DNA from: a virus
DNA: 51,375 bases
Virus record (IMG/VR): IMGVR_UViG_3300046808_000281
Span: 1-51,375 of that record
Strand: one strand, 5' to 3'
A program made the position numbers and the translations under genes. Position 1 is the first letter of the stretch; the number at the start of each line of letters is the position of its first letter. This document shows, in pieces, positions 19,028 through 22,141 of this stretch. The notes beneath the pieces were generated by a model. That model was not told where the DNA came from, did no database searches, and was given only the letters and a program-made list of their open reading frames with translations.

Positions 19028-19085
19028 TGATATAATAGTACAAAATGTTATAAAAACGTAATATTGCAAAAAAGGGCTCTATAAT
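19028..19085 (+). promoter_or_regulatory. Tandem -10 promoters ahead of the protease gene
   Basis: TGATATAAT at 19028-19036 and a second TATAAT at 19080-19085, whose end is 9 nt before the ATG at 19095. The first would give a ~50-nt leader, the second an almost leaderless message. No strong ribosome site is present. Confidence 0.5.
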
Positions 19086-19094
19086 TATACTACA

Positions 19095-20426
19095 ATGACT
19101 ATTTCTAAGGCACAGTGGACAACAGACGGAAATGATATCCGTCTCTCAATGCCACTCTCAAAAGTTGATCAGGAAAAGCGTATCGTTTCTGGCTTTGCCA
19201 CACTTGATAACCTAGACAAGCAGGCAGACATCGTAACCCCAGAAGCAAGCCTTAACGCATTCAAGAGATTCCGTGGAAATATTCGTGAAATGCATCAGCC
19301 AATTTCAGTTGGCAAGATGGTTTCATTTAAAGAAGAAAAGTTTTTTGATCCAGAGACAAAGAAAATGTATAACGGCATTTATGTTTCTGCATATGTTTCA
19401 AAGGGTGCTCAGGACACTTGGGAGAAAGTCCTTGATGGCACCCTTTCTGGTTTTTCTATCGGCGGTAGAATGAACAAGTGGGACGACGCTTATGACGAGA
19501 AGATGGATTCTGCAGTTCGTATCATCAAGGACTATGACCTAACAGAGCTATCACTTGTTGACAACCCAGCTAACCAATTTGCCAATATTCTTTCTGTACA
19601 GAAGGCAGATGGTGTTAACGAGATTTCTGGAATTGCTGCAGACACAACTATTGAAAATGTATTCTATGACAAGGAGTCTGGAATTGCAATGCTTTCTGAA
19701 GAAGAGACGATGTCTAGTCCAATCTCAGGTGAGCCAATGCAGAATATAGGTTTCGTTGAAAAGAATGACAGCGAAAAATCAGAAATGATAAAATTCTTAG
19801 TTGATAGTGCTAAAGGCATTAATCTTGCTAAGATGACAAAGGAGGTAAGTCCTATGACAGAAGAAACAACAGTTGAGGCAGCAGTAGAAAATACTGAAGC
19901 AGCAGATGTAGTTGTTGAAAATGCAGAGGTCGCTCCAGAGGCAGAAGTTGTAGCAGATGCTCCAGCAGCAGACGTTGAAAAGTCTGATGTTGTTGAGAAG
20001 AGCGACGACAAAGATGAAGATGACAAGCCAGGTACCGAAGTTATGGAAGAGTCAGACGATGCGTCTGGCGAAGAAGATGACAAGGAAGAGGCTAAGAAGT
20101 CAGATGATGTAGCAGACATTTCAAAGGCAGTTGCCGAAATGAAGGACTCTGTAACATCAGCCTTTAGCGATCTTGTATCAACAATCAAGTCAATGCAAGA
20201 AGAAATTTCTGTATTGACCAAATCACTAGATTCAGTAAAGAGTGAGGTAACTGAATCAAAGAGTGTATTTAACGAGTTTGGAAAGAGAGTAGATGCCGTA
20301 GAGGCAGACACAGCTTTCCGCAAGTCTGGCGATATCGGCGATATCGTGCAGGAACAGCCTGAGACACAGGTTGAAAAATCAATATGGGGCGGACGTTTCC
20401 TCAAAACTGCCGATCTATTCAGATAA
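19095..20426 (+). CDS. XkdF-like prohead protease with C-terminal scaffold domain
   Basis: 443 residues. Residues 1-175 match the XkdF-type phage serine protease: VDQEKRIVSGFATLDNLDKQADIV, His67 (REMHQP), the serine motif TLSGFSIGG (Ser121 most likely nucleophile) and DLTELSLVDNPAN. The second half is highly acidic and Ala/Glu/Val-rich (residues 254-335), then a coiled coil (about 355-395, SVTSAFSDLVSTIKSMQEE...), as expected for a scaffold. A strong internal ribosome site and in-frame ATG at 19854 separate the two halves. Protease and scaffold thus appear fused and also expressed separately, as in lambda C/Nu3. Confidence 0.85.
   Translation: MTISKAQWTTDGNDIRLSMPLSKVDQEKRIVSGFATLDNLDKQADIVTPEASLNAFKRFRGNIREMHQPISVGKMVSFKEEKFFDPETKKMYNGIYVSAYVSKGAQDTWEKVLDGTLSGFSIGGRMNKWDDAYDEKMDSAVRIIKDYDLTELSLVDNPANQFANILSVQKADGVNEISGIAADTTIENVFYDKESGIAMLSEEETMSSPISGEPMQNIGFVEKNDSEKSEMIKFLVDSAKGINLAKMTKEVSPMTEETTVEAAVENTEAADVVVENAEVAPEAEVVADAPAADVEKSDVVEKSDDKDEDDKPGTEVMEESDDASGEEDDKEEAKKSDDVADISKAVAEMKDSVTSAFSDLVSTIKSMQEEISVLTKSLDSVKSEVTESKSVFNEFGKRVDAVEADTAFRKSGDIGDIVQEQPETQVEKSIWGGRFLKTADLFR
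19854..20426 (+). CDS. Nested in-frame scaffold protein (internal start)
   Basis: AAAGGAGGT at 19838-19846 lies 7 nt before an ATG at 19854 that is in the same frame as the protease gene (codon 254). Translation from here gives a 190-residue protein consisting only of the acidic and coiled-coil part. The site is far better than the ribosome site of most genes in the window and sits exactly at the domain boundary. This is the arrangement of lambda Nu3 inside gene C: the short product serves as scaffold in excess over the protease. Confidence 0.7.
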   Translation: MTEETTVEAAVENTEAADVVVENAEVAPEAEVVADAPAADVEKSDVVEKSDDKDEDDKPGTEVMEESDDASGEEDDKEEAKKSDDVADISKAVAEMKDSVTSAFSDLVSTIKSMQEEISVLTKSLDSVKSEVTESKSVFNEFGKRVDAVEADTAFRKSGDIGDIVQEQPETQVEKSIWGGRFLKTADLFR

Positions 20427-20449
20427 AAAATCACTTAGGAGGTGACAAT

Positions 20450-21583
20450 ATGTCGGAAGAAATTAAGAAAAACAATCCAGATGCAGCAGGTGCTGACTCA
20501 GGCCTATACAACGGTGAGGGTGCATTTGCATCTGGTTCAACAGCTGGTGCTAACGTTCCAGGTAACTACACTGATGGTGGTGCACTGGGCAACATCCCAA
20601 CAGCAAACTTCGGAGTAACTACAGGAGCTAACGCAGTAAATCCTTCAGGTGAGGCTGGCAGTGGTATTCTACGCCCTGAGCAGGCACGTCGTTTTATCGA
20701 CTATGTTTGGGACGCAACTGTTCTTGCTAACGATGGTCGTCGTGTAACAATGAGAGCTAACACCATGGAACTTGAGAAGGTAAACGTTGGTGAGCGTGTA
20801 ATCCGTGCTGCTGCACAGGCAAACGGTGACTACACAAACACTGGTGCTACATTCTCTAAGGTTGAACTTACTACCAAGAAGATTCGTCTTGACTGGGAAG
20901 TTTCAGCTGAGGCTCTAGAAGATGGTATTGAAGGTGGTGCTCTTGAGGATCACCTAGTACGTCTAATGACCAACGCATTCGCCAACGACATTGAGGACCT
21001 TGCCATTAACGGTACAGGTTCAGGTAACGATGCATTCTTGTCAATCATGAATGGTTTCGTTAACAAGGTCAAGAATGATGGAGATGCACACGAAGCAGTA
21101 GTTACTGTTGCTGACAATGCATGGACTCCAGAAGTTATGCAGAAGATTATCCTTGCTATGCCACGTAAGTACCGTGCACTTAAGAACAACCTTAAGTTCT
21201 ACGCTGGTACTGACGCATTCCAGGGTATCGTCAAGCACAATGGTACTCTTGCTGATGCAATTGCTGAAGCATTTGCTGGTACTCCAGCAGGTACCCCTGC
21301 AAACCGTCAGGCTTACCTAGACGGTGCTGGTCAGACATTCGGTGGTGCTCGCACTACTCGTGTCCTTGGCGTAGATGTTCAGGAAGTTCCATACTACCCA
21401 GAAGGCTACGTTGACCTAACATTCCCAGCTAACCGTGTTTGGGGTATGCAGAGAGACATCACTGTAAACCGTGAATACAAGCCAAAGAAGGACACCATTG
21501 AATACACAGTATTCGTTCGCTTTGGTATTCAGTGGGAAGAGCAGGACGCTATTGCGTTCGCTGACGCTGCTGCAGATGCATAA
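20450..21583 (+). CDS. Major capsid protein, HK97 fold
   Basis: 377 residues from the ATG 4-5 nt after AGGAGGTGA (20437-20445), the best ribosome site in the window, fitting a very abundant product. Recognisable HK97-type elements: E-loop and spine region (ANTMELEKVNVGERVIRAA..., TGATFSKVELTTKKIRLDWEVSAEALED near residue 130-165), a helix AFANDIEDLAINGTG, the A-domain NLKFYAGTDAFQGI, and the C-terminal strands WGMQRDITVNREYKPKKDTIEYTVFVRFGIQWEEQDA. The N-terminal ~65 residues are Gly/Ala/Asn-rich and could be the part removed by the protease. In-frame start codons upstream of 20450 lie inside the protease gene and are unlikely. Confidence 0.9.
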   Translation: MSEEIKKNNPDAAGADSGLYNGEGAFASGSTAGANVPGNYTDGGALGNIPTANFGVTTGANAVNPSGEAGSGILRPEQARRFIDYVWDATVLANDGRRVTMRANTMELEKVNVGERVIRAAAQANGDYTNTGATFSKVELTTKKIRLDWEVSAEALEDGIEGGALEDHLVRLMTNAFANDIEDLAINGTGSGNDAFLSIMNGFVNKVKNDGDAHEAVVTVADNAWTPEVMQKIILAMPRKYRALKNNLKFYAGTDAFQGIVKHNGTLADAIAEAFAGTPAGTPANRQAYLDGAGQTFGGARTTRVLGVDVQEVPYYPEGYVDLTFPANRVWGMQRDITVNREYKPKKDTIEYTVFVRFGIQWEEQDAIAFADAAADA

Positions 21584-21604: not shown

Positions 21605-21632
21605 GGGGCAGGGGCATCCAAGCTCCTGCCCC
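21605..21632 (+). terminator. Strong GC hairpin after the major capsid gene
   Basis: An 11-bp stem (GGGGCAGGGGC paired with GCTCCTGCCCC, one G-T pair) has the 6-nt loop ATCCAA and is followed by TTATCTCATAT. The T-tract is poor, so it may be a partial terminator or an mRNA 3'-end stabiliser for the capsid message. Confidence 0.65.
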
Positions 21633-21640
21633 TTATCTCA

Positions 21641-21657
21641 TATAATAATGTTATAAT
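21641..21657 (+). promoter_or_regulatory. -10 promoter elements after the capsid terminator
   Basis: TATAAT at 21641-21646 and TGTTATAAT at 21649-21657. Start from the second near 21664 keeps the ribosome site AAGGAGG (21672-21678) ahead of the ATG at 21683. Confidence 0.6.
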
Positions 21658-21682
21658 ATACATAGACATGTAAGGAGGAATT

Positions 21683-22141
21683 ATGTCCGAAGAAATTAAG
21701 AATGAAGATGTAGTCCCAGCAACTCTAACAGAGAATGAGCCAGTTATTGCACCAGATGTTGCAGATAAGGCAGCTGAAATCGTTGCTGAGATCGTTGCTG
21801 AAGCAAAGATTGAAGAAGCACCAAAGCCAGCGGAAGATGTTATCACAACTAACGCAGCTCCTGCAGCTACAGACAAGCCAGCTCTTGGCCCAGTAGCAGA
21901 TGGTGTAATTGGTACATCGACAGCTAAGGCAGTCAAGAAGGCTGCACCAAAGCCAAAGGTAGAAGAGAAGAGAGACGACGTTGTCGCAGTCTACTCCTCA
22001 AGAAACATTCACTGGGAAGGCGTTGGAAAGCTTGCAAAGGGCTTTAATGTTGTGTCTAAGGATGCAGCAGAAAAGTGGCTAACTAAGTCAGGCATTCGCC
22101 TAGCTGATCCAAAAGAAGTAGCCAAGGGATACGGTCTTTAA
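21683..22141 (+). CDS. Head-module protein with acidic N-terminus
   Basis: 152 residues. It starts MSEEIKN, nearly the same as the major capsid protein (MSEEIKKN). The first ~100 residues are low-complexity, Ala/Glu/Pro/Val-rich. The last ~52 form a compact domain (VAVYSSRNIHWEGVGKLAKGFNVVSKDAAEKWLTKSGIR..., DPKEVAKGYGL). The C-terminal domain looks like a small capsid-associated or head-completion fold, but no family is recognised with confidence. Strong AAGGAGG ribosome site suggests high expression; decoration protein is one possibility. Confidence 0.5.
   Translation: MSEEIKNEDVVPATLTENEPVIAPDVADKAAEIVAEIVAEAKIEEAPKPAEDVITTNAAPAATDKPALGPVADGVIGTSTAKAVKKAAPKPKVEEKRDDVVAVYSSRNIHWEGVGKLAKGFNVVSKDAAEKWLTKSGIRLADPKEVAKGYGL

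Follow-up and report, generated by a model that had tools for sequence, protein, structure and literature searches.

The nested protease/scaffold logic of the lambda C/Nu3 pair is already known (reference in PMC8508860). In Mu (I/Z) and in the Mu-like phage PaMx73 (gene 27), an in-frame scaffold start also lies inside the protease gene; the Mu-type internal start has a Shine-Dalgarno (SD) sequence 8-9 nt upstream and the putative start in PaMx73 is Val177 (PMC4378225). In herpesviruses, the UL26/UL26.5 pair comprises a protease-scaffold fusion and a more abundant scaffold that is identical to the C-terminal part of the fusion, and a C-terminal segment of the scaffold is required for shell formation (PMC12474303).

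Here, we analysed a stretch of 51,375 nt that makes up IMG/VR virus record IMGVR_UViG_3300046808_000281 (the window), in which a capsid maturation protease gene is followed by the major capsid gene. As in lambda C/Nu3, the frame is shared, the scaffold would come from an internal start and correspond to the C-terminal part of the protease ORF, and capsid genes are next. However, the lambda C protease is ClpP-like (S49-type) whereas the window protease is of the S78/XkdF type, and we know of no comparable hairpin or leaderless start for C/Nu3. An earlier sequence-only reading of the window had described the locus as the lambda logic in a phage with a different protease family. This description is correct against lambda, but the precedents of Mu I/Z and UL26/UL26.5 imply that a nested scaffold on a non-lambda protease is not new. 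Phage S78 proteases are grouped in one clan with the herpesvirus S21 proteases; UL26.5 is made from a separate transcript, whereas in the window ribosomes probably bind internally within the same frame. Mu I/Z and PaMx73 are the closest phage precedent for the nested start of the window, although the site and the SD differ; the relevant passages of PMC4378225 mention no conserved upstream hairpin, while the clade of the window has one.

Closer to the window, homologous proteases with an internal SD and ATG or GTG are present in phages of the Stanwilliamsviridae (Samistivirus, Karimacvirus, Gilsonvirus and others) and in the Rhodococcus phages Trina, Grayson and Weasels2. The gene order in these phages and in the window is portal, usually a small gene, protease and major capsid; by contrast, their SD is in another codon phase than that of the window and is without the hairpin. 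In the 12 actinophage records that we examined, the only annotation of the ORF is that of a maturation protease of the capsid or head, and none of them names a scaffold. A literature search on XkdF plus scaffold had no relevant paper among its results. The nested scaffold start in this actinophage group is apparently unannotated, and what appears to be new here is its placement in this group together with a conserved RNA element, while nesting itself is a known strategy. The analysis gives the scaffold of these actinophages a precise predicted start and adds a case from actinobacterial phages, on an S78/XkdF protease, to the nested arrangements of lambda, Mu and herpesviruses. The host of the window phage would, judging from its relatives, be an actinobacterium.

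A protease ORF with an acidic, predicted coiled-coil C-terminal half

Membership of the protease ORF in the Peptidase S78/XkdF family is indicated by two Pfam profiles that both score above their curated cut-offs, i.e. PF04586 (Peptidase_S78; 31 bits, cut-off 21, E 3.4e-7) and PF14550 (XkdF-type Peptidase_S78_2; 24.8 bits, cut-off 24, E 2.4e-5), and phrog_9427 (head maturation protease) in PHROGs spans the whole ORF with an E-value of 4.9e-117. Among 46 diverse relatives, PF04586 was matched in 46 and PF14550 in 45, and the protease motifs MHxP, GFSIGG and ELSLVD are invariant across the 46 sequences. These data bear out the assignment of an XkdF-type protease to the N-terminal part of the ORF in the sequence-only reading. 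The Pfam S78 match stops at residue 166 and is separated from the internal start by a conserved beta-rich piece and a helix (about residues 186-247). An AlphaFold2 model built on the 46-sequence alignment, which is of low confidence (mean pLDDT 57.9, pTM 0.33), is rich in beta structure up to about residue 240, is disordered at about residues 242-337 and then forms one long helix at residues 338-410; its best Foldseek match, to the capsid protease of T4 (gp21), is weak (E 0.025). The sequence-only reading had the internal start coincide exactly with the end of the protease domain. This placement has to be revised: because the S78 match ends at residue 166, the catalytic core does not reach up to the start, and residue 254 lies just inside the disorder that begins at about residue 242. 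The features of the locus are listed in Table 1.

Table 1. Features of the protease/scaffold/capsid locus in the window
Feature	Position	Strand	Details
TATAAT -10-like box, probable leaderless promoter of protease	19080..19085	+	9 nt before protease ATG
Complete capsid maturation protease ORF with putative scaffold half	19095..20426	+	443 aa, 48.7 kDa; profile matches
Protease region, residues 1-240 (S78 core, small conserved beta-rich piece, helix)	19095..19814	+	AlphaFold2, motifs, Foldseek
Conserved RNA hairpin (predicted)	19795..19833	+	basal 19795-19800/19828-19833, apical 19807-19811/19815-19819
Hairpin apex 9-mer GCTAAAGGC	19809..19817	+	exact reverse complement of 20160-20168
Internal SD AAGGAGG	19839..19845	+	(A/G)AGGAGG in all listed non-redundant relatives; second-best of 48 starts
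Nested putative scaffold ORF	19854..20426	+	190 aa, 20.5 kDa, pI 4.08; ATG in 91/91 listed relatives
Long predicted helix/coiled coil, residues 338-410	20106..20324	+	AlphaFold2; hydrophobic periodicity
Downstream 9-mer GCCTTTAGC	20160..20168	+	conserved at synonymous sites; complementary to hairpin apex
Conserved C-terminal tail, residues 411-443	20325..20423	+	invariant residues in alignment; shared motifs
SD of major capsid gene	20437..20442	+	strongest SD in window
Major capsid protein	20450..21583	+	377 aa; PF05065 E 1.1e-6; phrog_1623 E 1e-73

In the C-terminal half, the hydrophobic periodicity of the predicted helix peaks at 3.5, as expected of a coiled coil, and the nested product has a pI of 4.08. 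These features agree with the acidic, coiled-coil half described by the sequence-only reading. The last 33 residues of the ORF are highly conserved, and the motifs KSGDxG and WGG(R/H)FL in this tail recur in Streptomyces phages. This tail is probably the capsid-binding end of the scaffold, and we infer scaffold function for the 190-aa product. The conserved tail is read in frame 0, and inspection by eye revealed no slippery heptamer for a frameshift after the internal SD.

The listed capsid ORF begins at 20384 only because its first ATG was taken; the capsid start is at 20450, where it has its own SD. The gap between the protease stop and this ATG is only 23 nt, and no other scaffold gene therefore fits there. 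We found no separate scaffold gene between protease and capsid in the window or in the 12 annotated actinophages examined, in which the gene order is alike, in agreement with what had been noted for the window. Just upstream of the capsid gene, synonymous sites are conserved at 20395-20407 (GTTTCCTCAAAAC) and in codons 426-439; a 4-bp stem with CCUC in its loop, complementary to SD sequences, could form there.

The internal start and its conservation

The near-perfect ribosome site proposed to stand 7 nt before an in-frame ATG is present as described: AAAGGAGGT at 19838-19846 is followed by AAGTCCT (7 nt) and by the ATG at 19854-19856, which is in frame with the protease ORF and is codon 254 of its 443 codons. 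The internal SD came second among 48 starts in the window that were scored by duplex energy with the 16S tail, and the SD of the capsid gene alone was better. The window contains three copies of AAGGAGG on its + strand, and the other two (21672 and 26279) are ordinary gene starts.

Relatives were found with the window proteins or with the hairpin itself, and the frequencies given here for the matches listed describe this clade and not all phages. (A/G)AGGAGG-N8-ATG is present in frame in 91 of the 91 non-redundant IMG/VR relatives listed; synonymous codon identity among these relatives is about 60%, yet the SD, the spacing and the in-frame ATG are invariant. In part, the SD motif is to be expected from the encoded amino acids alone, which counts against the nested start: after synonymous shuffling of the relatives, (A/G)AGGAGG and ATG stood at the site in 19% of the shuffles, compared to 91/91 in the real sequences. 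In the listed relatives, the codon for K249 is AAG in all 88 cases with Lys and that for E250 is GAG in 91/91, while Lys-Glu elsewhere in the genes of the relatives is encoded by AAG-GAG in 22 of 290 cases.

Outside this clade, an in-frame strong SD with ATG or GTG was found at codons 245-268 in 12 of the 12 phages sampled, i.e. nine Streptomyces phages of the Stanwilliamsviridae and the three Rhodococcus phages. In these phages, the SD is read as GAA/AAG-GGA-GGT (Glu/Lys-Gly-Gly) and not as AAG-GAG-GTN (Lys-Glu-Val) as in the clade of the window. Thus, the same signal is found in another codon phase and with other amino acids, suggesting that the nucleotide signal is what is kept. The chance of an SD with a start at codons 235-275 is 1-30% per genome by synonymous shuffling, and because the 12 phages are mutually related, their counts are not independent. 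Altogether, the clade of the window has a conserved in-frame internal start with its own SD, as in nested protease/scaffold pairs, and we consider initiation at the ATG at 19854 very likely. The conservation in the clade, the other codon phase elsewhere and the acidic C-terminal half, predicted to be disordered and to form a coiled coil, strongly support the nested scaffold start proposed by the sequence-only reading. Separately, AAGGAGG with an in-frame GTG is present at codon 296 of a distant S78 protease ORF in Alicyclobacillus phage MMB025; this protease is fused to an acidic C-terminal half and is possibly a further case of a nested start.

Predicted RNA structure around the internal start

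The sequence immediately upstream of the internal SD is predicted to fold into a hairpin, in which CUUAG pairs with CUAAG and the apical part is GUGCU-AAA-GGCAU, and which ends 5 nt upstream of AAGGAGG. All 11 core pairs can form in 91 of the 91 listed sequences but in 0.3% of synonymous shuffles, and the basal-pair probability is 0.85 compared to 0.016 in shuffles. In the listed relatives, codons 235-246 are nearly frozen at synonymous sites, e.g. G241 is GGC in 91/91 and S238 is AGT in 90/91. Variants of the hairpin are mostly G-U exchanges, and one pair is changed on both sides. Because most of the pairs do not vary, covariation is weak, and the observed paired percentage is attained by 41 of 500 shuffles; the case for the hairpin is therefore made by the synonymous-shuffle controls. 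An IMG/VR scan with the hairpin motif alone gave at least 79 scored sites, and all those listed have an SD and an ATG behind the hairpin, 75 of 79 as (A/G)AGGAGG-N8-ATG and the other four as AAGGAG-N9-ATG in frame. The window has no Rfam 15 match at gathering score, and the hairpin appears to be a new, previously undescribed RNA element. The sequence-only reading had noted neither this hairpin nor the leaderless-type start of the protease. When the RNA of the sampled Streptomyces and Rhodococcus phages was folded, we saw no common stem, and the hairpin is thus not needed for the basic nested-start strategy.

The idea that the hairpin exposes the SD is unsupported by SD accessibility, which is no different from that in synonymous shuffles (0.430 and 0.431). 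In the fold of the window, GGAG of the SD is predicted to pair with CUCC in codons 280-281, and both segments are nearly invariant. The third positions of codons 278-282 (19926-19940, GAGGTCGCTCCAGAG) are nearly frozen.

The apex of the hairpin is also complementary to a 9-mer further downstream. The two 9-mers are about 340 nt apart in the window and 303-417 nt in relatives, and both are frozen at synonymous sites. Counting G-U, all nine pairs can form in 90 of the 91 listed sequences, compared to 1.2% of synonymous shuffles; moreover, among the matches listed, GCCTTT(A/G)GC lies downstream in 64 of the 64 hairpin-motif loci with enough sequence. This long-range pairing would need the apical stem to be opened, and the two structures could thus be alternatives. 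The 9-mer pair may be a switch or it may be a site at the DNA level. We suggest only tentatively, and with more doubt than belief, that the hairpin and the downstream 9-mer act together as a switch, or as an operator bound by a protein, and thereby set the ratio of scaffold to protease by feedback; if the nested start is under such RNA control, the partner of the operator may be, for example, the scaffold or the capsid protein.

Two proposed starts in one ORF and the alternatives

Leaderless genes have been defined by a TANNNT motif about 10-12 bp upstream of the start codon and no SD (PMC3160421). At the start of the protease itself an SD is almost absent, and by 16S-tail duplex energy this start is among the weakest of the 48 scored. 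Of the listed relatives with sufficient upstream sequence, 89 of 89 have a TATAAT-like box before the protease ATG, mostly 8-10 nt upstream, while an SD-like match is present in 1 of 89; the box and the missing SD mark the protease gene as probably leaderless by this definition. The box in the window is probably a promoter that gives a leaderless protease start. TATAAT is also found 6-9 nt before the starts at 92, 5070, 5761, 8134 and 25535, which like that at 19095 have little or no SD, and all six are probably leaderless genes.

We find it likely, from the signals in the DNA, that the ORF makes two co-terminal proteins, a weakly expressed protease-scaffold from the leaderless start and an abundant scaffold from the internal SD. 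In this model, the promoter at the start of the protease gene would give a leaderless or nearly leaderless message, on which the first ATG, lacking an SD, would yield a small amount of full-length protease-scaffold, while the internal SD (19839) would load ribosomes afresh at the ATG at 19854 and produce more of the 190-aa scaffold than of the fusion. This scaffold would co-assemble with the capsid protein, which is encoded by the next gene with the strongest SD, and the fused scaffold half would bring the protease into the procapsid, where cleavage of the scaffold by the protease would allow the shell to mature. The hairpin most likely would keep the internal start available or act as its control point. 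The order of SD strength by 16S-tail duplex energy, in which the capsid gene exceeds the scaffold and the scaffold far exceeds the protease, fits the assembly needs. The dual start, leaderless-type and SD-dependent, and the hairpin suggest a testable control of the ratios of protease, scaffold and capsid from one message.

Other readings of the C-terminal half and of the conserved block have to be weighed against this model. The C-terminal half might be an internal head protein of another kind or simply serve to target the protease, and a delta-like segment of the capsid protein would then do the scaffolding. This would agree with the lack of any known scaffold family or homologue for this half in profile, sequence and fold searches (Pfam, PHROGs, Foldseek); however, the N-terminal arm of the capsid protein (about 75 aa, Gly/Asn/Ala-rich) is unlike a coiled-coil delta domain, and the nested product fits a scaffold in its gene place, its acidity, its coiled coil and its conserved C-terminal tail; we regard this reading as unlikely. 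If, on the other hand, the scaffold was made from its own internal promoter and a short mRNA, as for UL26.5, then the conserved block would be a promoter or DNA site. The weak pair covariation, with parts of the block invariant, and a promoter-like match (ATGACA-18-TAAAAT) at 19765-19794 would suit this, but the -10 hexamer of this match is not conserved (TAAAAT in 22/91 and TAAAGT in 54/91 listed relatives), and what is conserved in the block is the pairing part, all variants keeping the 11 core pairs. We therefore rejected this candidate as quite unlikely.

Two further readings leave the internal start with little or no role. Anti-SD pairing can slow ribosomes, and the purine-rich, SD-like site might pause them so that the protease domain folds first, with the full-length protein alone being made. 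In the low-confidence AlphaFold2 model the site indeed lies close to where folded sequence gives way to disorder, but a pause requires no start codon and leaves unexplained both the ATG at fixed spacing in 91/91 listed relatives and the ATG or GTG at workable spacing after the SD in the Streptomyces and Rhodococcus phages, despite a different surrounding protein; we consider a programmed pause very improbable. We give least credence to the release of the scaffold solely by self-cleavage of the protease, as in P2-like gpO systems, with a minor internal start. Self-cleavage at the joint is usual in protease-scaffold fusions, and in HSV a release site separates the protease from the scaffold (PMC12474303); however, protease and scaffold would then be produced in equal amounts, and the conserved SD and ATG and the weak protease start would be left unexplained. 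Self-cleavage may well occur in addition to internal initiation.

Beyond the capsid gene, a GC-rich inverted repeat, GGGGCAGGGGC...GCTCCTGCCCC, is present at 21605-21672, which a terminator scan did not flag. The repeat is followed by TATAAT and AAGGAGG upstream of the gene at 21683, and the capsid unit likely ends in this region, with a new promoter likely following it.
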